Positions 16,381 through 34,562 of a stretch of 64,000 nucleotides of DNA are shown in pieces. Source of the stretch: Armatimonadota bacterium (GTDB taxonomy: Bacteria > Armatimonadota > UBA5829); assembly GCA_039679645.1 (NCBI GenBank), contig JBDKUO010000029.1, forward strand, positions 1 to 64,000. The letters are read 5' to 3'. How positions within the stretch are numbered: position 1 is the first letter of the stretch; each line of letters opens with the position of its first letter. The notes beneath the pieces are model-generated. The model was not told the origin of the DNA, did not search any database, and saw only the letters and a program-made list of their open reading frames with translations. The position numbers and the translations under genes are program-made.

Positions 16381-17073
16381 TCAGACTTCCCCGATTGCAA
16401 ATGCGCTCTCGGCAGCGGTCTTTATATCAGCGCATGCCCGGGAGACCGGTTTGCAGTTGCCGAACACTGAGGAGCCCGCAACGAGCACATTGGCTCCCGC
16501 TCGAACGACTCTTGGGGCAGTGTTCACATCGATTCCGCCGTCAACGGCTATGTCTATATCCACACCGGCGTCTTGCGCCATTTCGCGAGCCTTGGCGATC
16601 TTGGGCAGCATAGTCTCTATGAAGCTCTGTCCGCCAAAGCCCGGGTTTACGGTCATGATCAGGACTAGGTCGAGATCGGTTATTACATTCTCAAGGACAC
16701 AAAGCGGAGTGTGCGGGTTCAGAGCGACTCCCGCAGGCACGCCCAAAGCCTTGATGGAACCTATAGTGCGGTGCAGGTGTTTGCATGCCTCGGCATGAAC
16801 GGTTATCTCGCTGGCTCCGGCATTGACAAAATCTTCAATATAGCGCTCAGGCTGCTCTATCATCAGATGCACATCGAGCGGCATGTCCGTGATCTTACGC
16901 ACGGCTTTAATCACCATAGGACCGAAGGTTATGTTCGGAACGAAATGGCCGTCCATAACATCGCAGTGGAGCCAGTCCGCCCCACACTCCTGAGCGGCGA
17001 ATACGTCCTTGCTCAAATTGCTGAAGTCAGCCGACAGCAGTGACGGCGCGATTACTAATCTACTCATACTCAT
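16381..17073 (-). CDS. rpe: ribulose-phosphate 3-epimerase
   Basis: Interconverts ribulose 5-phosphate and xylulose 5-phosphate in the pentose phosphate pathway, in line with supply of ribulose 5-phosphate to the RibB reaction encoded downstream. The TIM barrel shows IAPSLLSADF near residue 8, the metal-binding HCDVMDGHFVPN near 36-47, DVHLMIE near 67, the glycine loop VNPGFGGQSF near 145 and VDGGI near 180. Its start overlaps the PASTA kinase stop as ATGA. Confidence 0.96.
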   Translation of the reverse strand: MSMSRLVIAPSLLSADFSNLSKDVFAAQECGADWLHCDVMDGHFVPNITFGPMVIKAVRKITDMPLDVHLMIEQPERYIEDFVNAGASEITVHAEACKHLHRTIGSIKALGVPAGVALNPHTPLCVLENVITDLDLVLIMTVNPGFGGQSFIETMLPKIAKAREMAQDAGVDIDIAVDGGIDVNTAPRVVRAGANVLVAGSSVFGNCKPVSRACADIKTAAESAFAIGEV

Positions 17074-18755
17074 TCCTGACTGCCGCCTCCAGCCGGAAAC
17101 TCCTTTACCATTTCTCCGCCCACGTAGACTTTTATTGTTGCGTTGTCTCCATATGCAGTTATGGTCTCGGTGAACTTGTCGCCAGGGCTGCGGTTCTCGG
17201 AATATGCCGTTGTCTCACCGCGGCTGTCGTCGACCACTATCTGGACTTCCTGATCACCATCGGCATCAGCGGGAACCTCGACATTTACTCTATAGCGGTG
17301 GGCCTTTCCGGTCGGTGTCGACGACGTCGATGACTCTTCGTCGCTCTCAGGCTTGGGACCATTGCTTAGAACAATATCGATAGCGCTGCCGGGAGCGCGC
17401 TTGACTTCGGCAGGCGGGTCCTGCGTAATGACTGTGTTCGCGGGCACCTTCTCACTGTATTCCTGTTTCACCTTGCCTATGGTAAAACCGGCATGCACGG
17501 CAGTTTCGTTGGCCTGCGCTTCCGGAAGACCTGAGAGGTCCGGTATTTCGACCATACTCGGCCCGGTGCTTATCTTAACTTTTACTACAGGATTGTCTTT
17601 GGATACCATAGAGCCTGTGGCGGGGTTCACATCACATATTTGACCCGCCGGGTAGATGTCACTGAAGGCTCTGCCGTCATCGACGAGCTTAATGTTATTC
17701 TCATCTGCTATACTCTGCGCCTCATCCCAGGTCTTACCAAGCATCGGAGGCACTTTCACCTGCGCCTTACCGCCGATAACGTACATTGTTAAGCCAAGGA
17801 ACAGCATAACAACAGCCACAAAAACGACTACCAGCCAGACAAAGTTTTTCCTCAAGAGCTGCTCAGGCTCAGTCTGGTGTTCCTCGGCAGGCGCTGCGAT
17901 ATGGCGCGGACTTACAGAGGTCGGGTGGCCTGTCCTCATAGACTCGCTGACTGCCTTGATATCGGCCAGCATCGCCGATACGCTCTGATAACGGTCCTGC
18001 GGAGAAGCCTCCATGGCCTGCATCACAATATCACTCAGTGACTTCGGAATCGCCGTATTTATCGAACGCGGCGACGGCGGCACTTCCTTAACTTTTTTGA
18101 GAGCCACTGCAATGGCTGTCGCGCCGCTGAAAGGCAGTTGGCCGGTAAGCATCTCATAAAGAATAACGCCTATTGAATAGATGTCCGAGCTAGGTGTAGG
18201 CGCTGCACCCTCAGTGATTTCAGGCGCCTGATAGTGGACTGAGCGCATCGCACACTTATCCGCTACGGCCCGGCAGCCGCTCACCGTAGGCCACAAGCCA
18301 AAATCGGTGAGTTTGACCTCTCCATCGGGACTGACGATTATATCCTGCGGAGCAATGTCTCCATGGATAATGCGGTTTGCGTGCGCATACTCAACAGCAG
18401 TAAGCACGGGCAAGATGATATCTAAAGCATTAGGGGCTCCAATAGGTCCGGCTCTGCGAATTCGCTCTTTTACATTGATTCCACGCGCGAACTCACACGC
18501 AACAAAAAACTCGGACTCGGTGCGGTCGACATCAAGCACTCTGACAATATTCGGGTGCGCAAGCGAAGCCGCACTCCGGTAGCCGGAGAGCATTGTCTGA
18601 GTGCAATCGCTGTCATTCGTCAGTTCCTTCGCCAGCACTTTGAGCGCAACCAGCCGGTTAAGCACTTTGTCGCGCGCCTTATATACGGAGAAAACAGGCC
18701 CGTCGCCCATTTTTTCCAAAACTTCGTATCTATGATTCACAATATGTCCTATCAA
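17070..18755 (-). CDS. PASTA-domain Ser/Thr protein kinase (PrkC/PknB type)
   Basis: Membrane sensor kinase. The kinase domain covers residues 1-270: glycine loop GDGPVFSVYKARD, lysine in VALKVL, catalytic loop IIHGDIAPQDI and DFG. The catalytic loop has HGD where most members have HRD, so the usual RD arginine is absent. One membrane helix (VWLVVVFVAVVMLFLGLTMYV) lies near residue 315, then two PASTA domains (about 335-400 and 402-470), which in this family bind peptidoglycan fragments, and a hydrophilic beta-type tail. It is coupled to rpe, as in the Bacillus prkC region, but the phosphatase and RsgA genes normally between are not here. Confidence 0.9.
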   Translation of the reverse strand: MIGHIVNHRYEVLEKMGDGPVFSVYKARDKVLNRLVALKVLAKELTNDSDCTQTMLSGYRSAASLAHPNIVRVLDVDRTESEFFVACEFARGINVKERIRRAGPIGAPNALDIILPVLTAVEYAHANRIIHGDIAPQDIIVSPDGEVKLTDFGLWPTVSGCRAVADKCAMRSVHYQAPEITEGAAPTPSSDIYSIGVILYEMLTGQLPFSGATAIAVALKKVKEVPPSPRSINTAIPKSLSDIVMQAMEASPQDRYQSVSAMLADIKAVSESMRTGHPTSVSPRHIAAPAEEHQTEPEQLLRKNFVWLVVVFVAVVMLFLGLTMYVIGGKAQVKVPPMLGKTWDEAQSIADENNIKLVDDGRAFSDIYPAGQICDVNPATGSMVSKDNPVVKVKISTGPSMVEIPDLSGLPEAQANETAVHAGFTIGKVKQEYSEKVPANTVITQDPPAEVKRAPGSAIDIVLSNGPKPESDEESSTSSTPTGKAHRYRVNVEVPADADGDQEVQIVVDDSRGETTAYSENRSPGDKFTETITAYGDNATIKVYVGGEMVKEFPAGGGSQE

Positions 18756-20129: not shown

Positions 20130-21839
20130 TTACGGAACAAGAGACTCACCCACAACACCGGTGCCTGATGGGGAAATGATGGTCGGTGTTATGAAGATCA
20201 GCAGTTCACGGTCATCAGTCGAGTTCGAATGAGTCCTGAACAGACTGCCTACAATAGGAAGATCGCATAGGATAGGAATACTCTTATAGCTGTTTGAATC
20301 AGTCTTTCTGACAAATCCGCCAACTACGACGGTCTCTCCGTTTGCTACACGTCTCTGACAATAAAGCGACTGAATACGCTCCTCAGGAATCTGAGAGCCA
20401 TCAGGACCCGTATACATTGTGCCCTGGTCAGATACCTGCGGATACATTGTCATCGTGATTGTATTGTCACCATTTACCCGGGGCATAACTGAGAACATAC
20501 TCTGAATTTGCAAATAATTTACAGAATATGAGGTGTTAGTGGCACTCTCGGAGTAAACAGTCACACTCTGCCAGGTTGGAATTTGATCCCCTATCTGTAT
20601 CATAGCAGTCTGATTGTTTATTGTCGAGACAATAGGCGCATTGACGACTCGTCCGACTTCACTAGTAAGCTCAGCCTTAAGCTGAGCAGTAAGGTTGCCG
20701 CTGGTAAAGCCTACGATGATATTGCCTTCGGGGTTAAACGCTGTGTTGAAACTATCATTGATCCTCTCAAGGCTCCAGTCAATTCCGAATTTTTTAACGT
20801 CGCTCGTTGAAACTTCAATAAACTCAGCCTTAATCTGAACCTGCTTTGGAGGCACATCAAGCATTCGCACTGTCTTTTTGAATGCCTCTATCCCGTCCTC
20901 AGTGCCTTTTACAATGATAGAGTTGTCGAGGTCGAACGGCTTCACATCATCGACACCGTCTGGAATAAGGAAATTGCCGTCGCCGGATGTGCCGGACTGC
21001 GATGCAGTAGTGGTTCCCGGCCTGTTATATGATTGCTGGCCGCCGTAGTACCCGCCGGAATTATATCCGCCGCCGGGACCATAGCCGCCAGGCCGGTAAG
21101 CGCCGGCATCGGGATACTGGGATGCGCCTGTCACTTGATCGGCTGTCCTTCCTGACCCTCGACTCAAACTGCTCGGATCAATTGACGGAACAACCGGCTG
21201 GCTGTTTTGATTGCGTATGGTTAAATTGGGATCGTATATCAGGCCGTTTTGGTTCATATTAGTCGATGGCCTTGCGCTATCTCCAGATGTTGTATGGGTA
21301 TTGCTTAAGTATTCGGGAGATATTGATTCACAGTTGGGCATGGGATTTATGCCATTCCAGCCGATAAGTCTCAATAACTCGCTGGGCCTGGAATGAATAA
21401 GCTTTACAACAACAATCTGTTTTTCCTGATTATTCACACTCTGAGATGCAGTCAACTCGACCGGAGGAAGTGCGGCAGCTACATCCGTCAACGAAACAGC
21501 AGGCTCATCGGCTATATCAGCGCCAATTATATATGTGCCGTCGTCCGCTTTTTTGTAAGAAACCCCTGCGCCCTTTACGACATAATCAAGGGCCTTCTCA
21601 ATAGGAATATCATTGAGAGATGCGGTTATCTTCTTATCAAGCTTGGAGTCATCCGCGATGACAATGTTGGTACCGCTCTGTTGAGTGAGCAACATCACCA
21701 CTTCCTTCAACGAAAGATCCTTAATTTGAAGCGATATTGCATCCGCACTACCAGCAATCGCCAGCACGGCAAGAGCCATTCCGGCAACTGAGAAAGCCCT
21801 GGCCCTAAAAGAGCACCATGGCTTTAATATTTGAAGCAT
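20130..21839 (-). CDS. pilQ: type IV pilus / type II secretion secretin
   Basis: Forms the outer-membrane pore through which a pilus or secreted protein passes. It has a signal peptide (VAGMALAVLAIAGSADA), an N0/STN domain (about residues 35-110), an N1-like domain (IVVVKLIHSRPSELLRLIGW, about 145-165), a long Tyr/Gly/Ser/Pro-rich linker (about 225-280), another N-type subdomain, and the C-terminal secretin domain with VNAPIVSTINNQTAMIQIGD, VANGETVVVGGF and DLPIVGSLFR. GGAGGAGG precedes the ATG. Last gene of the pilM-N-O-P run. Confidence 0.92.
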   Translation of the reverse strand: MLQILKPWCSFRARAFSVAGMALAVLAIAGSADAISLQIKDLSLKEVVMLLTQQSGTNIVIADDSKLDKKITASLNDIPIEKALDYVVKGAGVSYKKADDGTYIIGADIADEPAVSLTDVAAALPPVELTASQSVNNQEKQIVVVKLIHSRPSELLRLIGWNGINPMPNCESISPEYLSNTHTTSGDSARPSTNMNQNGLIYDPNLTIRNQNSQPVVPSIDPSSLSRGSGRTADQVTGASQYPDAGAYRPGGYGPGGGYNSGGYYGGQQSYNRPGTTTASQSGTSGDGNFLIPDGVDDVKPFDLDNSIIVKGTEDGIEAFKKTVRMLDVPPKQVQIKAEFIEVSTSDVKKFGIDWSLERINDSFNTAFNPEGNIIVGFTSGNLTAQLKAELTSEVGRVVNAPIVSTINNQTAMIQIGDQIPTWQSVTVYSESATNTSYSVNYLQIQSMFSVMPRVNGDNTITMTMYPQVSDQGTMYTGPDGSQIPEERIQSLYCQRRVANGETVVVGGFVRKTDSNSYKSIPILCDLPIVGSLFRTHSNSTDDRELLIFITPTIISPSGTGVVGESLVP

Positions 21840-21888
21840 CTAATATTTCCTCCTCCGGTCAAAGGCACAAATCATTTCAGTAATTATC

Positions 21889-22542
21889 CTACCAGCTTCT
21901 ACTACTGCCGCTGCTGCCCCAACTGCTGCCGCTGCTGCCGCCAAAGCTGCTGCCGCCACCAAAGCTGCTGCCGCCGCCGAAACCACTCATGCCACTCATG
22001 CCACTCATGCCACCCATGCCACCCATGCCGCTCATGCCCATGCCGCTTGAGCCGTAGCCGTTTGTGCTGTTGGTATTGCCGTTCATCATATTGAGCAGCT
22101 CGCTTGCGCCGGTGTGGTTCAGCGGCACTTTGTCGATAATCGACTCGGATGTCGTGGTTGTGTCAACTTGCGGGATTTCGGCCGGCACTTCGGAAGCACG
22201 GTTCATATCTGTCGTCTCGGGCTTCTTGCCGATAATATAAACGCCATTATCCACACGATATACAAGGCCGGCGGTTTTTGCCAATATCTTCAGAGCAACA
22301 TCAAACGCCGTGTCTTTTACAGAGAATGATGATATCGTCATGCCCGCCGCCTGCGAGTCAACCGCATACCCAATGCCCGTGCCGGCAAATAACGCATCAA
22401 TTGCCGTCTTTGCATCTATATCCTTGAGATCAATAGTGACAGACTCATCTTTACCGGCGGCAAAGCCGATTGAACATATAAGTCCCGAGGCCATTACTGC
22501 TATCATCAGCGCAACAATTAACCTCTTCAATTGCTTGACCAT
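21889..22542 (-). CDS. secretin-N0-like protein with glycine/methionine-rich tail
   Basis: 217 residues from the ATG at 22542, which has AGGAGG six bases before it. The protein has a signal peptide (VALMIAVMASGLICSIGFA), one N0/STN domain (about residues 32-105, DLKDIDAKTAIDALFAGTG to GVYIIGKK), and the beginning of an N1-like unit (VPLNHTGASELLNMMNGN). It lacks the secretin pore and ends in about 60 residues of SGMGGM and SFGGGS repeats, encoded by a 9-bp tandem repeat at 21987-22050. It lies 49 bp before the full secretin and is probably a duplicated, truncated partner of it. Role unknown. Confidence 0.75.
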   Translation of the reverse strand: MVKQLKRLIVALMIAVMASGLICSIGFAAGKDESVTIDLKDIDAKTAIDALFAGTGIGYAVDSQAAGMTISSFSVKDTAFDVALKILAKTAGLVYRVDNGVYIIGKKPETTDMNRASEVPAEIPQVDTTTTSESIIDKVPLNHTGASELLNMMNGNTNSTNGYGSSGMGMSGMGGMGGMSGMSGMSGFGGGSSFGGGSSFGGSSGSSWGSSGSSRSW

Positions 22543-22654
22543 TTCAAACCTCCTGCGCATACTACACGAGCAATGCGACTCCCAAGCCGAAGCTTACATT
22601 TGATATGACTTGCTTTCACAAATCAAGGTTCCGCTTAGGACTTCATACTTTACT

Positions 22655-23407
22655 TTACATCGTTGGCCGCGTCCTGGCTCCCCTCGGCATCGGCGGTATT
22701 GTGCCTGCACCACCGGGAGTAGACTGACCCGAACTTGCCCCTGCGCCGATATCCGTCCTCGGTGAAGAAGCCATTCTAACAACTATATACCTGGGCCTTT
22801 TATCTGTCGTCTTAAGGATCACTTTGTCCTGCTCGATCTTCACAACTCTAGCCAGATGATCCTTGAGCTCTTGACCCGGCTGGACAATTTCAGTAGACCC
22901 ATTAGTCTCTATGATCGCATAAACTCGCTTGTTAAGCAATAGCCCAGCCATTCGCCTGATCGGCTGTTGAGCCTCTTGATAATCAACCGTTGAATGCTCA
23001 ACCCTTGGAAGCAGGACAGAAGGAAAAGGAAAATCCACGATGGGCACCTTTCTTACAATCCGTTTCTTGGGCGGCTTGTAGCCTACGGGCAGGAACGGGT
23101 CGGACCGCCACGCCATCATGGGAGTTGCGCCGCTGGAAGCCTGAGCAGTCTGGGTCGGCTGAGCCGTCGCACTTGCATCGGGCGTCGCAGGCGCGCCGGG
23201 CGTTGTTGTCGGACCCGGCGTCGGGCCCGCCGCATTCGGATCCGCGGCCGGCTGCGCCGTCATATCCGGTGACGTCTGAGCAGCAGTATCATTCGCTTTA
23301 TTGCCAAAGATTACCGGACGAAGAAAAAATATAAGCACACCAACGATGATCACAGACAGCACAGTCACGATAATCGGCTGGTTCTTCTTATCCTTAAGCC
23401 AATCCAT
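22655..23407 (-). CDS. pilP: PilP-like inner-membrane lipoprotein-equivalent / secretin linker
   Basis: 250 residues: a short cytoplasmic start, one membrane helix (IIVTVLSVIIVGVLIFFL), a long Pro/Ala/Thr linker (about residues 45-95), then a beta-rich domain (about 145-205; LLLNKRVYAIIETNG, VQPGQELKDH, VVKIEQDKVILKT) typical of PilP or the GspC homology region, which touches secretin N0. Unlike proteobacterial PilP it has a membrane helix rather than a lipobox. The C-terminal tail is Gly/Pro-rich. It lies between pilO and the N0-like gene. Confidence 0.75.
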   Translation of the reverse strand: MDWLKDKKNQPIIVTVLSVIIVGVLIFFLRPVIFGNKANDTAAQTSPDMTAQPAADPNAAGPTPGPTTTPGAPATPDASATAQPTQTAQASSGATPMMAWRSDPFLPVGYKPPKKRIVRKVPIVDFPFPSVLLPRVEHSTVDYQEAQQPIRRMAGLLLNKRVYAIIETNGSTEIVQPGQELKDHLARVVKIEQDKVILKTTDKRPRYIVVRMASSPRTDIGAGASSGQSTPGGAGTIPPMPRGARTRPTM

Positions 23408-23437
23408 TAAATTTCAACTCCCAATATTCGCGTCATC

Positions 23438-24151
23438 TCAAGGCGCTCCCGGCGTAGGCGGCATTCCCGGAGCAGCCGGAGTAGCGCCTGCAGCGGCTGC
23501 GCCGCCACCGGCCATCTGTATCTTGTCGCCGCCTTTTGCTGCAGGGAATATATAACACGTAAGAGCATAACTCGCCGTCAGATGCGGGCTTATCCCACTG
23601 AGTACCGGCTGCGAGACCATTACAAGCCTGCTGCAGTTATTCCAGCGGCATATGTTTGCCATAAGGTCTTTGAAATCACCCTGGACCACAACCGTTCCAA
23701 GCTGAAACACCAGCACATCCTGATCGAACACAGGATCGTTTGGATTAGCCGGGGGAGCCGGAAGTGAAAACTTGGCGTTAATTACCTTTACCTTCTTGTC
23801 TTTTGCAAAACTCTCCAGCAGTGGACCCAGTGTGCTTATCTGTTCGTGCCAGAGTTGAAGCATTCCCAGGTCACGCCGTGCAAAGTTTAGATTAGGCATA
23901 CGCCTTTTCATCTCAGTATTCAAAGACATCTGAGTGTTGTTTGTCTCGCGAATAGCATTATTCAAAGCCTCGATTGCTTGATTCTCGGCTCCCTGGTTCG
24001 CAAGCGTGCATTTATCGACTCGCGCCTGCGCAGCTTTTAAGGCCACTTGCTTGGGTTTTATAAGCAGCATAAAAACACCGACAACAGCAAGTATGCACAA
24101 GAACGCGCCGATTATTATGACGTGTATCTGTTTCAGTTTGGAAAAACTCAT
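23438..24151 (-). CDS. pilO: type IV pilus alignment protein PilO
   Basis: 237 residues: an N-terminal helix (IIIGAFLCILAVVGVFMLLI), a coiled-coil (about 35-90), and a ferredoxin-like periplasmic domain ending near residue 205 (LTCYIFPAAK), then a Gly/Ala/Pro tail. The plan matches PilO, which pairs with PilN in the inner membrane. Sequence identity to known PilO is not obvious by eye; assignment rests on architecture and position between pilN and the PilP-like gene (39 and 30 bp gaps). Confidence 0.8.
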   Translation of the reverse strand: MSFSKLKQIHVIIIGAFLCILAVVGVFMLLIKPKQVALKAAQARVDKCTLANQGAENQAIEALNNAIRETNNTQMSLNTEMKRRMPNLNFARRDLGMLQLWHEQISTLGPLLESFAKDKKVKVINAKFSLPAPPANPNDPVFDQDVLVFQLGTVVVQGDFKDLMANICRWNNCSRLVMVSQPVLSGISPHLTASYALTCYIFPAAKGGDKIQMAGGGAAAAGATPAAPGMPPTPGAP

Positions 24152-24190
24152 TATGATTCCTTAAAATAGTCCGCCGAATTAATATCTGAG

Positions 24191-24970
24191 CTAAGGCCCA
24201 CCCGGCGCGCCAGGTGTCGCCCCAGGAGCACCAGCAGCTCCTGCACCAGCAAAAGAAGGAGCTGTAATGGGAGTCTTGAGCTTACAAACAACAGTAAAAT
24301 CTATCCAGCCATTTTGGCCGGGCACTTTTTGCATTGATGAGCTGATCGCATCAATACCCGCAAGCGACGATTGACCGCCACTCGGGGTAAATGACGGACC
24401 AGGCACGGGCGGCATGGACGGCGACGGCATTGCACCAGGCATAGTCCCGGCAGAACCGGAGTCTGTCAGATTCTGTGAATCCTTGCCGTATCCCGGCACC
24501 CCGGATATCGTTACCTCAGTAAAAAGATCGGTTGCGCGGTACATATTCAGCAGATATCTGCCCAAGTAATCGAGATTCTTCGTTCGTGCCGCAATTACTA
24601 CCTGAGTGCCGTCACAGGCTATGCCGGTATACATGACTTTTTCATAAGTCCACTTGGCAACTTCGGCATAGAGCTTGGGATATACACCGTTGAACTTGAG
24701 AACGGCATTGATAAAGTCGAGCTTGTCCTTGATCGGCTTGATGGACGATTGCTGGTCCTGGGCCTGCTTTTGAATGCCCTCGACCCTGCTCTGCCAAGCC
24801 TCCGCCGCCTGAGCCTCGGATTCCTTTTGTGTGACCTGATTGCCCAGGTTAGAGGCATACGTAAGCCCGCCCACAACAATAGCGATCAGAACCACAGCAA
24901 AAGCTATCGCTGTGTTTCTGATAACCGCCTTCTCGTTTATGGTACGCGGCAGCAAGTTTATTTTGATCAT
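24191..24970 (-). CDS. pilN: type IV pilus assembly protein PilN
   Basis: 259 residues. The first residues, MIKINLLP, are the conserved INLLP segment with which PilN binds the cytoplasmic PilM. A membrane helix (AIAFAVVLIAIVVGGLTYA), a coiled coil (about 45-85) and a ferredoxin-like domain follow, then a Gly/Pro/Ala-rich C-terminal tail as in PilO and the PilP-like protein. It is 31 bp after pilM. Confidence 0.88.
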   Translation of the reverse strand: MIKINLLPRTINEKAVIRNTAIAFAVVLIAIVVGGLTYASNLGNQVTQKESEAQAAEAWQSRVEGIQKQAQDQQSSIKPIKDKLDFINAVLKFNGVYPKLYAEVAKWTYEKVMYTGIACDGTQVVIAARTKNLDYLGRYLLNMYRATDLFTEVTISGVPGYGKDSQNLTDSGSAGTMPGAMPSPSMPPVPGPSFTPSGGQSSLAGIDAISSSMQKVPGQNGWIDFTVVCKLKTPITAPSFAGAGAAGAPGATPGAPGGP

Positions 24971-25001: not shown

Positions 25002-26636
25002 CTAGCCGATCATATCTCTAATCGCCAAGCCTATACATACGGAAAAGACCGGCGAGATATCCTTTAGGTATTGTGGTGAAGCCGCGGGCACATTTACCCG
25101 CAGGTCTTTCATCGGATCAGCCACTTCGCATGGAACTCCGAGTTCTCTGCTCAGAAACTTGTCCAGGTTCGGCATTTTGGCAGTCCCACCACAAAGGTAT
25201 ATCCGCTGCGGAGGATTTGCGTACTTGGTGCCGTAATAATCAAGCGAACGGCGCAGCTCTACGGCAAGGTCCGTCAGCACGCCTGAGATCGCCTTGAAAA
25301 CATTACTCTCCATCGACCCGGGCTGCGGTGAGCTGGGCGCATGAACAGGAACCACGGCCTCTTCACCAGGATCGGCATTTTGACTGGTATCACTCAGATC
25401 AAAATTCGGGTCCACTTTTTCAGGTTCCATGGACGGTGTGTCGTCCTGGTCATCGAGGTCAAATGACGGCTTTATCTGTTCATTGGCAGTCTCGCCGCCG
25501 CCAAGATCAAACGCCTGTCCTTCGTCTTCAGGTTCGTCCGACCCAAAATCAAACGCCGGACCATTTTGAGTCGACTCGCCGCCAAGATCAAACGCGGGCT
25601 TTGAAGCAGCAGGCTCGGGTGAACCAAATGTTATCCCACCCAGCGGATCATCTGAACCGAAATCCGGGCCGTCTATAGTATTTGCGAAACTTCCGGGCTG
25701 CACCGTTTCGGTGCCGGCATCGCCCGCCGCAGGAGCGGAACCCGGCTCGTCCATATCAAACGATAGACCACCGGCTGCGTTATCCGGGCCGACGGAAGTC
25801 CCGAAGGAAGTCGGCTCAGAACCAAAACTAAACCCGCTCCGATCATCGGCTGCGCTGTCCGCAAAACCGTCCAGGTCCACAGCGGCGTATTCCTTCTTCG
25901 TGATCTCGGCCTGGTCAAGACTTTGACCCAACGCCTCGGCAATCTCCTGGGTGAATGTCATGCCCGCAATACCGAGCGGAGGACTTGGAAAAGTAAGAAT
26001 GCCGTTCTCGAAGATGCCAAGGTCGGTGTTATGCGCGCCTATGTTGACAATAGCTACGACTTCGTTCTTAGCGCCGTTGGTGGAGGTCTCCACAAGCGCC
26101 CGGCTTGCCGCGAGAGACTCTATATCTATCGCCATGGGCTTGAGTCCGGCTGCCATGAGCGTTTGAACATGACTGTCTATAAGCTCCTGCTGCGCAACCG
26201 CAAGCAGGACCTCCATGTTTTGCGCATTCGGGTCCGCACTGGGTCGCTCGACAGGTTGAAAGTCCATCACGATCTCATTCGGAGGAAACGGGACATGCCT
26301 TTCGACTTCCCACTTGACCGTCTCAGCCAGTTCTTTACCGCTCATCTTGGGAACATCGATCACACGCACGACAACCCGTGACTGTCCCGCCACTGAACTG
26401 ACGCTCTTTTTCGTCTTTATTCCGCTCTCCGCAAGCAGAGCCTTGACAGCGCTGCCCAGAGCCTTGGAATCGACAATTACTTCGTTTTCCACCACACCTT
26501 CGGGAAGGGGGGCAACGCCCAGACCGGTTATGGTTATGCCGTCCTTGGTTTTCTTGGCCTCGGCAACTTTGATGGTATCAGTGCCGATGTCCAGGCCCAC
26601 AACTGCGGAAGGCGCGGATTTGGGTGACGGACTCAT
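25002..26636 (-). CDS. pilM: type IV pilus assembly ATPase-like PilM with large acidic insert
   Basis: Cytoplasmic actin-fold protein that binds the PilN tail. The fold is recognisable in two parts: residues about 8-235 (VGLDIGTDTIKVAEA, VERHVPFPP, VNIGAHNTDLGIF) and about 440-544 (LRRSLDYYG, IYLCGGTAKMPNLDKFL). Between them is an insert of about 190 residues that is acidic, Gly/Ser-rich and carries repeated FD[LFM] motifs (SFDMDEPGS, AFDLGGES, AFDFGSDE, AFDLGGGE, SFDLDDQD, NFDLSDTS). Ordinary PilM is about 350 residues. The insert keeps frame and does not break motifs, so the protein is probably functional. Confidence 0.9.
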   Translation of the reverse strand: MSPSPKSAPSAVVGLDIGTDTIKVAEAKKTKDGITITGLGVAPLPEGVVENEVIVDSKALGSAVKALLAESGIKTKKSVSSVAGQSRVVVRVIDVPKMSGKELAETVKWEVERHVPFPPNEIVMDFQPVERPSADPNAQNMEVLLAVAQQELIDSHVQTLMAAGLKPMAIDIESLAASRALVETSTNGAKNEVVAIVNIGAHNTDLGIFENGILTFPSPPLGIAGMTFTQEIAEALGQSLDQAEITKKEYAAVDLDGFADSAADDRSGFSFGSEPTSFGTSVGPDNAAGGLSFDMDEPGSAPAAGDAGTETVQPGSFANTIDGPDFGSDDPLGGITFGSPEPAASKPAFDLGGESTQNGPAFDFGSDEPEDEGQAFDLGGGETANEQIKPSFDLDDQDDTPSMEPEKVDPNFDLSDTSQNADPGEEAVVPVHAPSSPQPGSMESNVFKAISGVLTDLAVELRRSLDYYGTKYANPPQRIYLCGGTAKMPNLDKFLSRELGVPCEVADPMKDLRVNVPAASPQYLKDISPVFSVCIGLAIRDMIG

Positions 26637-26798: not shown

Positions 26799-29700
26799 TT
26801 AATCGGCGGCAAAGCTCGGACTCACGGTCTCCCAGAACAAATCCGAGGTGCCGCTGCGGGTGCTCGTCCAGAACACCCATATCTTTGAAGAAATAGCGGG
26901 CACTAAAGTTCCACTTGAGTTGGAATATACTGGGTCTGCAAACGCATATATGCTGTCTTCGTTGACATTGCCGTCTGCGGAAAAGCCAAAAAGCGATTGC
27001 TCAGGTGTCTCCTCGATCCAGTATACATCTTTTGGGGTCACGGTTATCTGCGAGCCTGTCCCGCTGGATGCACTGGGAGTATAGGTGATCGTGATATCCG
27101 GCGGGGGTGTATCAAACAACGTGCCGCTCATTCTTTTCAGTGACTCATAACGCTCGTCAACCTCGCTGAAATAAATCTTGGTTCCGGCTCGGTTTACCTC
27201 CCAAGGACCCCTGTTATTGCCCACGCTCAGGCTTGCGGAAGGGTTGACACTACCGACAGCAGTTCCCAAAACATTGCGCTGTGTGACCATAGGGATCGGC
27301 GGATAGCTCTCGCCTGTCGCGGGATCAATGAGCTTTGTAAGGTCGACTCCGACACGATAGGTCTTGTAGTATATCGTGCTGGTCTTGACGCCCGTTCCCG
27401 CCTTGCGCCAGAACACCCACAGTCTGTCTACCGGCGCGCTCGAACCGCTGAAATCTCCCATACCGGGATTGATCGTAGTGTTCATATTCGTGCGTTCGAT
27501 AAACGCCCTGGGGCTGTTATCAACGGCTTCATCCGTAGTCAGCCGCCAGGTCTGAGGAGTATAATCCGCCCGGACCTCCGGCGTAATGAAGCTATCGCCG
27601 GCTTTGACCTCTGTCAATGGCTGAGTGAACCGGACTACGCCTCCTGAGAAATCGACCAGCATCTTGCCCAGAATAGCCGTTGTGATGGCGCTGGGATATT
27701 CATAGGTATAAATACCGGTCGCTTCGTCATAGGTCGGGACCAGCGCCTGTGGAGCAACCTCGGTGCCGTTAATTTTCACAGAGCCGTCTGTGGCGCTGAC
27801 GACCGCGCCGCCCGAACCGACCGTGACATCGCCGCTCGGCAGCTTCAGGACATACTTTTCAGGAAAGACTACGTGTATATACGGCACTTCCGGTGTCGAG
27901 CCGTAGTATGCATCTGTGCCCCAACTGTCCGTAACGGGCGACTCCGGAGACGGCTTTACCCACGCCAGGTGCTGCGAGAGATAGAAACCATACTTGGGAT
28001 CGCGCCTGAGCTGCTCGTTGAAGACTCTGGGCATAGGCTGGGCAACTTTACTCGGGAGCGCATTTTCCAACGCTTCCTTAACAGTTGCATCAGTCTGGTT
28101 GTTAATGTCAATCTGATTTGCTGCAATATAGCGGCCAAGCAGAATATCGGAGTTCTGGCTGAATTTGTTTGTTCCGGCGTATACGATATCCAGAAGCTGC
28201 TTGCAGCCGGAATAGTTCGGGCTCGTATTCAGGTCTCCCCAAAACCGGCGGAATATGCAGTTTGGCGAACTCATTGAAGATAAACAACTCGGAACGGCGA
28301 GCATGCTGTCATCCGTCCACCCATCCATCGAGAGTCCGCCGGTGTCGTTGGTCGAATACATGAGCGATAGCTTTCCGTTACTGCCGCCCTGCCAGAACAA
28401 CCAAGCACGGTCATTATAAACAGCCATGCTCGGTGAACGCTTGATCATGCTGGGATCATGCTTGATATAGTTTATCGTGGTGTCACTGGAAGTGACATCT
28501 CCTCCGGTCACATTTGTATAGAAGATCAGATGATCCTGTGTAACTTTATTGGCGCTGCTTTCCACATCAGCGTCTCCCGCCCAGACCAGCCATGTGGGCC
28601 AACCGGAACTTGAGCTGCCGGATGAGCTTGACCCGGAACTGTCGTAACCGGTAACCGAGTTTGACGTGAGCTTGCTGGTTATAACAGGCGAATGATGACG
28701 CACTGAATAGAAATCGGTCGCGCTGCCATCAAGTGTCCACATCATTGGCGTAGACATATCGACAGGCCACTGTTTGCTCTTGGGAGGCAGTGTGGCGTCC
28801 GAGTCACTCGTTGGCACCTTCCACCACTGATTTTTTGGCGTTGTCTGAGCCGATTGCCATTTTCCGCTATCCCAGCTCAACTTCGCACGATCGATAAACC
28901 ACGGAGCATTGGCAAAGTCCGTGCGTTTAGGATCAGTAGTGCTGGACCAGTCGGGATATAGACTGCTGTCGAACATCCTGTTGCTGGACCAGAAGAGATA
29001 GACATTGCCCGATGCCGGGTCCCTGAATGCGGCTGGAGTCGAGTCGCCTATCCTGGGGGTCGAGTCGCTATCGATCTGCGGCAGTGTAAGTGTTGTGACA
29101 CCGCCCGTAAGCTGGTTTTCACGCACGCTTGCATTGAGTTGGAAGCTGGTCTCGGCTACAGGCTCGGCCACAGGATCAAGATACCCGTTGCGGTTACGGT
29201 CGGCGAACACAGGCACGTACGGCAGGCCGTATGCAGTGTCATAACTGTGATACGCGCCTATCGGCTGAGTCAGAGGAACCTCCAAACTCACTTTCACCGG
29301 CAGAGGCTCATCGGTGTCGAGACTCGTACCGAATGTCTTGTTGAGAGATGTCAACACACCTTTGGTGTAATCTTTGGTGTAAAGCGAAGTATTTTTGTCA
29401 TAGTAGTTCATATCCCATTTGCGCTTATCGGGTATTGTCATTATGCTCGGATCAGGATCGCCGACTACCGATTTGGTGAGCGTATAGCCAAGGACCGGAC
29501 CGGCCATATTAACACTACTTGAGTCTGTCGTAATGAACGGGTCCTTTCTGAAGACATCAAATGCACTGGGACCGCTCAAGTCAAGAGAGCTTGTGATGCA
29601 GCCATAGGGCACCGGAGAAACGGAGCCTGACTGATCGCTAAAGAGGCGGACCTGGCGGCCAATGTACATATCGGGTATGTTCACATTGCCGGCGTTCTTG

Positions 29701-32700
29701 ATAGTGACCGTCTTAAACCACTGCGAGACATCGGGATTTGGATTGTACGCGCTGAACGCCTGTGCGTTTGTAAGCCCAACACCCAGGCCATGAGGCGCGC
29801 GGCCTATATCGATAGTCTGCTGCTCTACCTCTATCTTAGGATCGGGCGGAACAAAGACGCCGACACGGAACCTGCGATACGCCTCCTGATATGTGCTGGG
29901 TTTGCCGTTGGTCACGTTTCCGTCGTCCCAGCTTCCTTTGCCGTTCGAATCTATGTATGCCTCAACACGCTTGCTGTAACCCGAGATCGAATTGGCAGGC
30001 TGGAAACGCGGCACATCAACAGATACAAGCACAGCCTCCGGCAGCAAGGTGCAATCATCATAACTAAGCGGCGCAATCCCGCTGGCTTCATACACACCCG
30101 CCAGGCTGGTGTTGTTGTTTGCGGGGTCGCCGCCGTCGCGGGCCTTCTGATAGCTTTGATGCTGCTTTGAGATATTCGGATAATCAGCCGAGCCGATGCC
30201 GAACTCCCAGGGAAATTTGACTCCACCTGAAGGTCTAATCGCGTCGATGCCGCCGTTCCAGCCAAGCTGGTCCGCATTGATCCTGAAGTTGGGAAGAGCA
30301 TTCCAAATGCCCGATTTGCTCTGAATAGTTCCGGTCGCGCTTCTGTCCATTACCCATAGCCTGGCCTGACGTGAAGTCGTGCCATGGTTTACTCCCTGCA
30401 GATTGACCTCAGGCAATACACCGGAGGTGTATGTGGCAGTTGAACCTGTTGTATCCAGTGTGGCATTGCCGTTGAAATGCGCCTCAGGATCGTATCTGGA
30501 CTTGTGTTCACTATTGGACCAGGCCGCATTGCTCGTAGTACGAAAATCGGTCGTGGTGCCGCTCTTGTCCGGCCATGCAATTGACAAAGGCGTGCTCTGA
30601 TCGTCCATAATGGCAAGAGGATTGTTGACTCCGATGTCCTGCTCCTGGAAGACCTCGTCCGCAACAAACGGCTTCGGAGGCGTGCCTGCGATCAGGCGTG
30701 CGATAGGATAGGTCTTGGTAGTAAATGCTGCGCCTTTGGCGGTGCTGTCCCGGCTGGTAACCATAACCTTAAGTATCCATCCGGGACCGGGACTCGGCGG
30801 GTCGTCGCCGTTCACTTTTGTGTAGTTAATCTTAAGGTCGAGATACGCGTAGGTGCGCTTGACCGGTGTCCCACTAGAATATTTTAGCAGAGGCGCCGTA
30901 GTGCCGCCGCCGCTGCCGTCAAGAACATTGTATTCCTTCACCGTAAAATGTTTTGTGGTCTTGATACTGCCGGCGCTGGCGCCGCCGCTGGAGTTTGTCA
31001 TGGACAGCGTGAATGCCGAAGAGCCTCTGCTTTTAAGATACGTCTTGGCGGGAAGGTTCCATAATATGATATTTATCGTTTCGCCCCACTCGAAATAGAC
31101 CGGTTTGTCTTTGGTCCGGATATCTTCGTCGCCAAAGTAATATACACGCTGCGCCTTCGCTGCCGTGAGGAGTTTTGCATCCACATCCGCATCAAAAGCA
31201 GCGCCCGTGCTCGTCGGCACATTTGTAATCCATTTCATATCGGGGCTTACCATCCACTTTTTTGTCGGCCAGTCAACCCAGGCAGTAGATGTGTTGCTCG
31301 GAGTATCGTACGTAGCAGGTGCAGTGGCGGATGCGATACTGGTCTGAGGATTCTTGTTTGCCGAGTTCTGGAAGAAATCCGAGTTGAAAATCTCACACTG
31401 GACTTCAGGGTCGGATTCCACCCCCTCAGATTTAATAGTATCATCAGGGAACGGCCAGTAGTCTCCACCTGCCCAACTGCCGCCCCATGCGCCGCCGTAA
31501 TCGGAGAAGGCATACACGCGGCCATCCGAACAACCCACATAGACGTAGCTTGTGGGATTGCTTGAAGTCTCATACTTGAACTGCGTGACGTTGGGCGATG
31601 AAAAAAGCTCTCCCATTGTCTGCATGTACTGGTAGTTCTTGCCCTTTTTATTATTTTTATCGATGTAAAGCTGCGCCTGCGTTGCATTCGGGTTATCCGA
31701 ATCATAGCGCCAGTCGCTGCGGCCCGAGTTGGCGCTGAGCCAGTGAAGCTTGCCCTCCATATCACCGGCATACATAGTCATCGTGTTGTTTATAGGCACT
31801 TTCGAACCGTCCGATGATCTTGTGTAATAGGTGGGATCACTGCTTGGAGCTGCGGCATCGAATGCGACCGAACCCTGAATAGGTGAAAGCAATGGCAATT
31901 CGGTATAATCGGCGCCATAAACATTGCGCTTGCTTGTATCGTTTGTATCGGGATAGTCGACATATAAACGGCGATTGTCCGCACTAATGCCTGCATCAGT
32001 CCCCGCATTGAAGCTGTATACGTGACCGTCAGTGCTGCCTATCCATGCCCGGTGCATAATCGTAGAAACGGCCCGGCCGTCCGAAGCATCGCCGACAACA
32101 GTAGTCGAATACCTGAATGCGCCGAGAGGCGTCTTGGTGCTGCCGTAATCAGGATATCTCCATAAAGGCTTACCATCTGCATCAGGACCGCTTAACGCAT
32201 TGATACAGTAAAAATAACCCGTTGTAGAACCTATAAGGAGCTGATCGTTATCGTCGTCAATAGTCGGGGTCGAGGTAAACCCGCCCATGCTGACTGAGTC
32301 TCCGAAAGATGTGCCGGATTTGTCCTGGTCGAAAAACGTCCATTTAGTCCTGGCTATGTCATCCATTGCGTTGTTCATTGCATCAAGGCAATAGATATGG
32401 CCATCGAGAGCCGCAACATACAGATATGGCGCGCTCTTATCCCAATAGGTAGGAGTGGCACCTATCGAGCCTAAAGGATCCGCGTCGGCATCGTCCGAGC
32501 CGCTGACCAGGCGCTTATTGCGAATCTTGGGATAGACCCAGTTTACCTCGCAAAGCTTGGCTGTAATTATGTCGGAACCTCCGTCGGCATCGAACGACAA
32601 CACCCGTCCGGATTCTGTGACGGCATAGATTGTATCGGCGATCATGTCTTTCGTATCAGTCATAGTGTCGTCATAGTCTTCCAATGACTTCTTGATATTG

Positions 32701-34466
32701 GCAACAGGGCTGCAATAGCTGAATGTGCCAATGCTGTCGGGGACGACCATTACTGCATCGGCAATCACGGTCCTGCCGGAAGAAACCGGTTCAAGTTTGA
32801 CATTTGTGACATTGAAATACGACGAGCCGAGCTGGACCCATTTGCCCTGGTTCGTCTGATCCGACTGATCGATTGTAACTGTAGCAGTGGTTGTTGAACC
32901 ACTGCTGTTTTCGTAATCAATGGAATACTCGCCTTTGCCTCGGGCCTTAGTTTCACCATAACCGACCGGAGGTATCCAGGCATATACGCTGTATGACCAG
33001 CCGTCGCCGCGGCCATCTCTTGTAGAGTCCAAAGTACCATAGAATGGCCAGTTTGTAGTGGCAGTGGAAGAAGTGGCATACCAAATGTTGCCGCCGAAGG
33101 CATCATCTCGACAGGTAATTTCTTTCCATCCGCCACCAATGCTGCATTGCTCACCGACAGTCTGGCCGGGGCCCTTCCATAGAAGCTTACCTGTTGTGGC
33201 ATCCAAAGCGTAGATCTGCCTGTCGCAGCCCGTCATAAAACACACAAGGGTGGGCTCGTCACCTATCAGCACATGAGCCAAAGTAGGTGTGGAATAAAAC
33301 CCGCCCTCTACCGGGCCTTCGAGAGGATCGCGAACACTGAAATCAGCACGATCAGGCTCCCAAGAAGGCTTTTCTTCACCAGGTGCAAGCACACGCGATG
33401 GATAGCGCCAGATAGCGGTGCCGAGCCTCTCCGAAAGCTCCTTGTATTGCGGGTTATTGGCAAGCGTATCGTTGATGGGTGTTACGGAGTTTACACAATA
33501 CACTGCCCCCGTTTCGGGAGCATTTTTGTAGTTTGATAACGGCTGCTCGACAGTGCCGATGTAGACCACAGGAGACTTGCCGTTATAGCCCTGCTGAGTA
33601 GTGTCATAGGTCTTACTGGGATCATGAACCATGTCATATTTAACCGTAGCGCTTACCGGAGAAGAGTATATCTCCATACCGGTGCCCCTGACGAACTTGA
33701 CCGCGTCGGCTGCAACACGAACGCCGCTGACACTGGTATCGCCGGTCACGTTTGAGAGAACGACTTTGTAATTGCTGGTCTTGGTCTTATCTCTGAATGA
33801 AAACTGTTTATCGGTCAAGAGCTGCCAGGAACCGCCGTCTGACTGATCGAAAGTGACCTGGGTGCTGCCGGTGTCGTCGTAGACCGTATAGATCGCGTTT
33901 TTAGTGAATGTAAAAGTATCAGTGATGGTGACCGTCGGGACCCACACATATACGTAGTAGTAACCGAGCGACACGCTCGGTCTGTTGGAATCACCGTAGG
34001 GGAATGTCCAGATAGCTTCGTCCGTTTTACCAGTAGAACTCGATGAGACAGCGCCCAAATAATGGTAACTATATGTTTCGGTATTGTCGGCGTAATCATC
34101 TTCGGCTGTGTCCGATACATAGCTGTAATCCCATGCATCTTCGGCTGTTGCCTCATTCCATAATCCATAGTACGTCTTGAACCAACTGACGCCCTTTTCC
34201 GGGGCAGCGTCATCTATAGCGGTATCCGCTTCAGTGGCATAATTCGCATCGGGACGCGGAAAGACCCAGATCACATCGAGCGAGGCGGGGTTCTCCAGAT
34301 CGTTCGAGTGAGGATTGCGGCCTATATGCATCATATCCGCATGGAACTCAGGCCACACAGGCCATGGTTCCGACACTGTGTCCGCACGTCCGGTACTCGC
34401 CAAAATGACTACCCAGACTGTTATGATAACTATTGGGATAAGAAAACGCGCTTTGCTTCCCTTCAT
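26799..34466 (-). CDS. giant exported PQQ-propeller/golvesin-domain protein, PilY1-like candidate
   Basis: About 2,555 residues from the ATG at 34466 (GGAGGG upstream), with a signal peptide (FLIPIVIITVWVVILASTGRA). Two golvesin/xanthan-lyase-like beta domains lie near residues 95-265 and 440-580 (YVYVWVPTV, VDAVKF-like ends VRVAADAVKFV and VIADAVMVV). PQQ-type beta-propeller blades are scattered between about 270 and 1030 (IYALDATTGKLLWKG, IYCLDAMNNAMDD, FYCINALSG, RVYAFSDYGGAWGG). Later regions show CARDB-like segments and repeated LWVFW/WLFW/IWVFW strands near the C-terminus. There is no visible sorting tail. It is the first gene of the pilM-N-O-P-Q strand, suggesting a pilus-tip or secreted adhesin role, but this is inferred from position and propeller content only. 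Confidence 0.75.
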   Translation of the reverse strand: MKGSKARFLIPIVIITVWVVILASTGRADTVSEPWPVWPEFHADMMHIGRNPHSNDLENPASLDVIWVFPRPDANYATEADTAIDDAAPEKGVSWFKTYYGLWNEATAEDAWDYSYVSDTAEDDYADNTETYSYHYLGAVSSSSTGKTDEAIWTFPYGDSNRPSVSLGYYYVYVWVPTVTITDTFTFTKNAIYTVYDDTGSTQVTFDQSDGGSWQLLTDKQFSFRDKTKTSNYKVVLSNVTGDTSVSGVRVAADAVKFVRGTGMEIYSSPVSATVKYDMVHDPSKTYDTTQQGYNGKSPVVYIGTVEQPLSNYKNAPETGAVYCVNSVTPINDTLANNPQYKELSERLGTAIWRYPSRVLAPGEEKPSWEPDRADFSVRDPLEGPVEGGFYSTPTLAHVLIGDEPTLVCFMTGCDRQIYALDATTGKLLWKGPGQTVGEQCSIGGGWKEITCRDDAFGGNIWYATSSTATTNWPFYGTLDSTRDGRGDGWSYSVYAWIPPVGYGETKARGKGEYSIDYENSSGSTTTATVTIDQSDQTNQGKWVQLGSSYFNVTNVKLEPVSSGRTVIADAVMVVPDSIGTFSYCSPVANIKKSLEDYDDTMTDTKDMIADTIYAVTESGRVLSFDADGGSDIITAKLCEVNWVYPKIRNKRLVSGSDDADADPLGSIGATPTYWDKSAPYLYVAALDGHIYCLDAMNNAMDDIARTKWTFFDQDKSGTSFGDSVSMGGFTSTPTIDDDNDQLLIGSTTGYFYCINALSGPDADGKPLWRYPDYGSTKTPLGAFRYSTTVVGDASDGRAVSTIMHRAWIGSTDGHVYSFNAGTDAGISADNRRLYVDYPDTNDTSKRNVYGADYTELPLLSPIQGSVAFDAAAPSSDPTYYTRSSDGSKVPINNTMTMYAGDMEGKLHWLSANSGRSDWRYDSDNPNATQAQLYIDKNNKKGKNYQYMQTMGELFSSPNVTQFKYETSSNPTSYVYVGCSDGRVYAFSDYGGAWGGSWAGGDYWPFPDDTIKSEGVESDPEVQCEIFNSDFFQNSANKNPQTSIASATAPATYDTPSNTSTAWVDWPTKKWMVSPDMKWITNVPTSTGAAFDADVDAKLLTAAKAQRVYYFGDEDIRTKDKPVYFEWGETINIILWNLPAKTYLKSRGSSAFTLSMTNSSGGASAGSIKTTKHFTVKEYNVLDGSGGGTTAPLLKYSSGTPVKRTYAYLDLKINYTKVNGDDPPSPGPGWILKVMVTSRDSTAKGAAFTTKTYPIARLIAGTPPKPFVADEVFQEQDIGVNNPLAIMDDQSTPLSIAWPDKSGTTTDFRTTSNAAWSNSEHKSRYDPEAHFNGNATLDTTGSTATYTSGVLPEVNLQGVNHGTTSRQARLWVMDRSATGTIQSKSGIWNALPNFRINADQLGWNGGIDAIRPSGGVKFPWEFGIGSADYPNISKQHQSYQKARDGGDPANNNTSLAGVYEASGIAPLSYDDCTLLPEAVLVSVDVPRFQPANSISGYSKRVEAYIDSNGKGSWDDGNVTNGKPSTYQEAYRRFRVGVFVPPDPKIEVEQQTIDIGRAPHGLGVGLTNAQAFSAYNPNPDVSQWFKTVTIKNAGNVNIPDMYIGRQVRLFSDQSGSVSPVPYGCITSSLDLSGPSAFDVFRKDPFITTDSSSVNMAGPVLGYTLTKSVVGDPDPSIMTIPDKRKWDMNYYDKNTSLYTKDYTKGVLTSLNKTFGTSLDTDEPLPVKVSLEVPLTQPIGAYHSYDTAYGLPYVPVFADRNRNGYLDPVAEPVAETSFQLNASVRENQLTGGVTTLTLPQIDSDSTPRIGDSTPAAFRDPASGNVYLFWSSNRMFDSSLYPDWSSTTDPKRTDFANAPWFIDRAKLSWDSGKWQSAQTTPKNQWWKVPTSDSDATLPPKSKQWPVDMSTPMMWTLDGSATDFYSVRHHSPVITSKLTSNSVTGYDSSGSSSSGSSSSGWPTWLVWAGDADVESSANKVTQDHLIFYTNVTGGDVTSSDTTINYIKHDPSMIKRSPSMAVYNDRAWLFWQGGSNGKLSLMYSTNDTGGLSMDGWTDDSMLAVPSCLSSMSSPNCIFRRFWGDLNTSPNYSGCKQLLDIVYAGTNKFSQNSDILLGRYIAANQIDINNQTDATVKEALENALPSKVAQPMPRVFNEQLRRDPKYGFYLSQHLAWVKPSPESPVTDSWGTDAYYGSTPEVPYIHVVFPEKYVLKLPSGDVTVGSGGAVVSATDGSVKINGTEVAPQALVPTYDEATGIYTYEYPSAITTAILGKMLVDFSGGVVRFTQPLTEVKAGDSFITPEVRADYTPQTWRLTTDEAVDNSPRAFIERTNMNTTINPGMGDFSGSSAPVDRLWVFWRKAGTGVKTSTIYYKTYRVGVDLTKLIDPATGESYPPIPMVTQRNVLGTAVGSVNPSASLSVGNNRGPWEVNRAGTKIYFSEVDERYESLKRMSGTLFDTPPPDITITYTPSASSGTGSQITVTPKDVYWIEETPEQSLFGFSADGNVNEDSIYAFADPVYSNSSGTLVPAISSKIWVFWTSTRSGTSDLFWETVSPSFAAD

Positions 34467-34562
34467 CAGGCCCTCCACATGCACTTGCCTATGAAATTCC
34501 ACTTATTTCGACTTAGCCTATATATCAATTGTTCCGTTACCGGGCATATATGGCAGCCACAC

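Follow-up and report, generated by a model that had tools for sequence, protein, structure and literature searches.

The stretch of DNA analysed here (the window) comprises 64,000 nucleotides from a bacterium of the phylum Armatimonadota. On its minus strand it carries a pilM gene whose product is split by a long acidic insert rich in phenylalanine (F). The pilM-N-O-P-Q order is present, with the genes downstream of pilM at 20130-24970; pilN, pilO and pilP are named by position and the secretin by Pfam. The features are as follows:

25002-26636, minus: pilM, 544 amino acids, split by the insert (PilM_2 189.8 bits, cut-off 27; TIGR01175 221 bits, cut-off 133)
25875-26636, minus: N-terminal part of the PilM core, residues 1-254 (PilM_2 profile positions 1-236; phmmer matches to M. 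xanthus, T. thermophilus and P. aeruginosa-type PilM chains)
25314-25874, minus: acidic F-rich insert, residues about 255-441, about 187 amino acids (no profile match; disordered side by charge-hydropathy; orthologous insert in 51/61 genomes)
25002-25313, minus: C-terminal part of the PilM core, residues 442-544 plus stop (PilM_2 profile positions 251-339)
24191-24970, minus: pilN-like gene, 259 amino acids, product starting MIKINLLP (named by its place after pilM and the N-terminal INLLP motif; no Pfam or NCBIfam hit)
23438-24151, minus: pilO-like gene, 237 amino acids (gene order alone; no family hit)
22655-23407, minus: pilP-like gene, 250 amino acids (gene order alone; no family hit)
21889-22560, minus: STN-domain protein, 223 amino acids (PF07660, 42.5 bits)
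20130-21839, minus: PilQ-type secretin, 569 amino acids (Secretin 128.6 bits; best NCBIfam match TIGR02515 PilQ at 176.8 bits, below its cut-off of 284)

The INLLP segment is presumably the PilM-binding motif of PilN. The STN-only ORF that precedes the secretin as a separate gene (together 20130-22560, minus) has a G/S/M-rich tail, and a similar short ORF occurs in the relatives G004, G015 and G027. Directly upstream of pilM (26799-34502, minus) is the gene for a 2567-residue protein with a Golvesin_C domain and a weak beta-propeller match, possibly a PilY1-like pilus adhesin; G004, G015, G019 and G027 likewise encode giant proteins in this position. The gene after the secretin is one that we take, from its sequence, to be aroB-like, and a PASTA-domain Ser/Thr kinase (17070-18755, minus) lies beside it and the pil genes.

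The window ORF is a bona fide PilM, since it exceeds the curated cut-offs of both PF11104 and TIGR01175. The PilM_2 profile (PF11104) aligns in two segments, positions 1-236 and 251-339 of 340, and the core is therefore complete by sequence with a single interruption. The observation of the earlier note that a long insert splits PilM holds; the core sequence is left intact, and the actin-like core would be complete apart from the insert. Scores against the models for FtsA (TIGR01174, 57.1 bits) and for the Amuc_1101 PilM-like protein (NF045709, 132.5 bits) stay below the respective curated cut-offs of 175.85 and 650.

The insert had been placed at 25320-25890 and measures 25314-25874, with ends set by local alignment that may be off by several residues. 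Its composition over 186 residues is highly skewed (26 D, 14 E, 14 F, 26 G, 21 P, 3 K, 1 R and no W, Y or C), which gives a net charge of about -36 (40 acidic vs 4 basic residues). The charge-hydropathy rule classes it as disordered (-0.060) and both parts of the core as folded (+0.079 and +0.088), in line with the disorder that the earlier note had proposed; AlphaFold run on the window PilM with an alignment of just three sequences gave a mean pLDDT of 33, too poor to inform on disorder or fold. The insert is thus probably disordered, as judged from its composition. A sequencing or frame artefact was considered as its source and ruled out by the in-frame insert in orthologues from 51 genomes. 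Likewise, the insert does not share the make-up of flexible tails in the operon: in chosen stretches of PilN, PilO and PilP, F numbers 3, 0 and 1, and acidic residues number 2, 1 and 5.

Within the insert, short F-centred motifs recur:

25791-25805, minus: FGTSV, residues 278-282 (F[DG]T[ASPVQ][VFA], in 13/15 order-level inserts)
25749-25760, minus: FDMD, residues 293-296 (FD[LFM] motif scan)
25659-25688, minus: FANTIDGPDF, residues 317-326 ([FY]..T.[DE]GP.F, in 13/51 inserts; DNA pattern in class genomes)
25581-25592, minus: FDLG, residues 349-352 (FD[LFM] motif scan)
25542-25553, minus: FDFG, residues 362-365 (FD[LFM] motif scan)
25500-25511, minus: FDLG, residues 376-379 (FD[LFM] motif scan)
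25452-25463, minus: FDLD, residues 392-395 (FD[LFM] motif scan)
25392-25403, minus: FDLS (within FDLSD), residues 412-415 (FD[LFM] motif scan)

The earlier note had described six regular FD[LFM] motifs, each followed by an acidic residue or glycine. Six are indeed present, starting at residues 293, 349, 362, 376, 392 and 412. The spacings of 56, 13, 14, 16 and 20 make just the last five fairly regular, and the following residue is D or G in five of six, the last (FDLSD) having S. The FGTSV and FANTIDGPDF motifs and five FG pairs, all in the window insert, had escaped that account.

The motifs are far more frequent than composition predicts. Six FD[LFMI] are observed vs 0.25 expected, and none of 200,000 shuffles reaches six; for plain FD the figures are six vs 1.96, with 1,207 of 200,000 shuffles reaching six. 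Among 109 predicted proteins of the same genome, the next-densest has two FD[LFMI] per 187-residue stretch. We also considered FDL pairs as a motif repeated across the genome. A DNA pattern for paired FD[L/F] has 17 matches there, three of them overlapping in pilM; five of the other 14 fall in an open frame, each as a single pair, and nine do not, which rules this out. As a separate matter, recurrent short TTTGACTTT / AACTTT-type repeats are scattered in G000 (contigs C15, C22, C34, C39, C55 and C56; L067, L069, L070, L074, L075, L077 and L078).

To place the insert in its lineage, we used 61 genomes: the window's own and relatives from genus to phylum level, three of which are named (two Armatimonadetes MAGs and one bacterium MAG). 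The window PilM has a match in 59 of them, and the best-match locus was taken from each genome with a long-type PilM match. In 51 genomes the same PilM lineage carries an insert at the same point, giving 51 distinct orthologues with inserts of 43-357 residues (median 139). This count includes G036 (L058), whose N-terminal half matches weakly (31.8 bits) and which was kept out of the trees; G003, with a scaffold gap within the insert, and G041, whose frame is broken, were left out of the insert measurements. The earlier note had held that an insert missing from the closest relatives, or random in them, would speak against it, and this is not what the genomes show. A long-insert PilM was not seen in eight of the 61 (G013, G014, G017, G020, G023, G025, G055 and G056), seven of which are at most 92% complete. 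The eighth, G020, is a whole genome at 99% completeness where the matches come from other PilM-like genes only. Moreover, a second sample centred on G042 shows split PilM_2 matches likewise in many further genomes.

The 51 inserts are generally F-rich and acidic. Pooled, their 7,478 residues include 484 F vs 8 W and 47 Y, 1,521 D+E vs 136 K+R, and no C; the median F-F gap is 11. FD occurs 164 times vs 47.8 in shuffles (45/51 inserts), and FD[LIV] followed by an acidic residue/S/G/N pair 66 times vs 0.70 (26/51). Individual inserts hold 0-10 FD, six have none, and those at chance level include L032, L046, L057 and L028. Among genus members the number is steady (6, 6, 6 and 8 FD in four, and 5 in a fifth beside a scaffold gap), so the expectation of a conserved motif number stands at close range; beyond the order it varies. 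The type of motif differs by lineage as well, with FDL in the window's class, NPF in G042 and FG in G032 and G059, and FSF also occurs beyond the order. The exact six motifs are therefore not fixed: across the phylum the number and type of motif drift, and F-richness and acidity persist.

Two longer patterns mark the closer relatives. Thirteen of the 51 inserts contain [FY]..T.[DE]GP.F (shuffle mean 0.00), two of these being outside the class, and it occurs in 11 of the 15 inserts from the order; F[DG]T[ASPVQ][VFA] is in 13 of the 15 order inserts (shuffle mean 0.21). Both were derived from the sequences scored, and these shuffle figures express specificity and cannot stand for a blind test. 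Searched as DNA, the F form of the former gives 13 matches, spread over 12 of 28 class genomes; 12 of the matches lie in pilM, and the reversed control gives six.

The insert is restricted to one PilM lineage. The window's own genome has additional PilM-like genes, and insertless paralogues hold 3-23 residues at the site in 19 of 20 loci fetched (the remaining one, L105, has no C-terminal-half match and went unmeasured). In particular, the second PilM of this genome, on contig C33, is likewise a full PilM_2 match with pilN-to-pilC-like genes adjoining (pilMNOPQ, then B, T and C-like), and it differs in having no insert; on contig C13, a GspE-like ATPase and prepilins belong to a system of their own. 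A tree built from 71 cores has one branch (100/100) that separates 50 long from 21 short proteins. When five PilMs from other phyla are added, these sit between the two groups and the long-insert branch becomes weak (78/66). A single gain of the insert is likely, though short of proven.

Selection on the insert is uneven. Motif codons were defined as F and its two following codons, and the window pilM was compared with G004, for which synonymous change is high yet measurable (against more distant species it is near or past saturation). The dN values are 0.042 for motif codons, 0.138 for spacers and 0.029 for the core, with dN/dS of 0.04, 0.13 and 0.04, respectively. That is, relative to the nearest relative, motif codons change about as slowly as the core and spacers about three times faster. 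F is retained at 14/14 positions in G001 and 12/14 in G002, and spacer positions at 92 of 143 aligned and 61 of 137. The short hydrophobic-acidic motifs reported earlier are thus real and under purifying selection.

The gene clusters of relatives narrow down what such motifs might bind. In both G019 and G027, a single cluster holds the long-insert pilM and, about 20 kb away, pilB-pilT-pilC; it comprises aroE-like, pilB, pilT, pilC, prepilin-peptidase-like, prepilins, giant surface-type proteins, pilMNOP and secretin (names mostly from N-terminal sequence and order; pilB by Pfam). In the window's own genome, contig C1 carries the pilB-T-C part next to an aroE-like gene, and pilM to secretin are in the window. 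The relatives' pil clusters encode no further obvious soluble protein. A PilB-like ATPase (Pfam) is also encoded at 6620-8353 of L133 (G000:C61), with no other pil gene recognised in the 12 kb around it.

Taken together, we tentatively read the insert as a multivalent array of short docking motifs on the pilus platform, a reading to which we give a little less than an even chance. Its motifs are repeated above chance and under selection, and composition argues for disorder. By analogy with FtsA-like folds, the insert site is presumably the loop joining two helices of lobe IIB. An acidic flexible tether would leave the PilM fold at this loop of the second (FtsA-like IIB) lobe and would present its F-centred motifs (FDL, FGTSV, FxxTxDGPxF) to a cytoplasmic partner. 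With PilM in a ring beneath the pilus platform, dozens of weak sites could be displayed, and such a ring may capture, concentrate or exchange the partner. The likeliest candidates would be the extension motor PilB, the retraction motor PilT and the cytoplasmic domains of PilC, given the lack of another obvious soluble protein in the relatives' clusters and the coupling of PilM to the motor in Thermus: T. thermophilus PilM is reported to bind the motor PilF (PMC6325625). A regulator or PilM itself would be further candidates. Simple electrostatic docking to PilB is unsupported because the N-terminal region of PilB is itself acidic (net charge -11, and -13 and -7 in two relatives). Counted against docking are the drifting number and type of motifs, the six inserts of 51 without FD, the 11 of 51 that the charge-hydropathy rule classes as folded, and G020.

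The same drift would suit a model without a single partner, in which F residues act as weak self-associating stickers and acidic spacers keep the chain soluble, so that PilM rings gather into foci/condensates (e.g. at the pole). Composition is kept as FDL gives way to NPF or FG, as this model would have it. On the other hand, generic stickers would hardly be expected to show patterns as specific as FxxTxDGPxF and F[DG]T[AS][VF] are within the order, motif codons are constrained about like the core, and the high net negative charge opposes self-association; we consider the model possible, if unlikely. Length and charge would suffice if the insert were a passive spacer or entropic brush that blocks FtsA-like polymerisation of PilM or spaces its rings. 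The range of lengths (43 to 357) and the free evolution of the spacers fit a brush, which has no need for conserved F motifs, and the excess of FD (164 vs 48 in shuffles) and the constrained F codons make it improbable.

The more specific motifs invite two further explanations. The conserved T320 of FxxTx[DE]GPxF might be phosphorylated by a Ser/Thr kinase and then read by a polarity/signalling protein, switching pilus assembly. This would fit the Thr-centred motif in 13 inserts (Thr being built into the search pattern) and the PASTA-domain kinase on the same strand beyond aroB. However, a kinase-like gene stands next to aroB in the window and in G004 (by its start sequence alone) and not in G015 or G027, and the motif is missing from 38 of the 51 inserts; a phospho-switch is accordingly quite doubtful. 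Alternatively, a motif could dock on the PilM core itself, for example in the PilN groove in competition with PilN. Its sole support is the presence of motifs and core on a single polypeptide, and the motifs are unlike the INLLP segment of PilN, so that we hold such intramolecular regulation to be very improbable.

Returning to the docking array, its widest form would make Armatimonadota PilM a multivalent scaffold ring, keeping motor ATPases, or else PilC or a polarity protein, under each pilus and serving motor exchange or pilus clustering. We offer this extension as speculative, and we know of no other type IV pilus with motor exchange or clustering of this kind. The insert itself is a phylum-wide, selected feature of a known protein, and the long acidic motif loop hints at a so far unnoticed site for docking or clustering on a widespread nanomachine. 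It bears on the exchange of extension and retraction motors under a pilus and on the placement and clustering of pilus machines. Moreover, a motif-bearing flexible arm kept across a phylum is a ready bait for finding its partner. More generally, domain models can overlook a large region of regulatory appearance even in a core component that looks minimal.

By titles and the opening of abstracts, none of the papers in the literature searched (which includes PMC13039148, PMC6145873 and PMC6325625) describes such a PilM insert; subscription papers lie largely outside this coverage, so the silence is weak evidence of absence. Our comparison beyond the phylum covers PDB chains and three plasmid-borne PilMs (340, 355 and 351 amino acids) rather than a broad scan. 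The PilMs of Thermus (2ych), Myxococcus (3jc8) and the Pseudomonas type (5eox) belong to the same family and align over both halves. They differ at the insert site, which spans about 21 residues in the first, 4 in the second and no more than about 18 in the third, and they have no acidic F-rich insert. Thermus PilM thus binds its motor without any such insert, which counts against the docking array.

FtsA has the actin-like fold in common with PilM, at a score below the family cut-off. The Amuc_1101 PilM-like protein of Akkermansia (NF045709, 608 positions) is also a PilM core with added length. This type of extension was rejected, as NF045709 aligns to the core halves at 5-249 and 244-352 and its extra length therefore lies elsewhere than this site. 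Hydrophobic or F-centred motifs in acidic flexible sequence are found in the SSB tail, the endocytic DPF/NPF/FxDxF tails and the FimV/HubP repeats. Those arrays belong to other proteins with other partners, and it is by description that the PilM insert resembles them.
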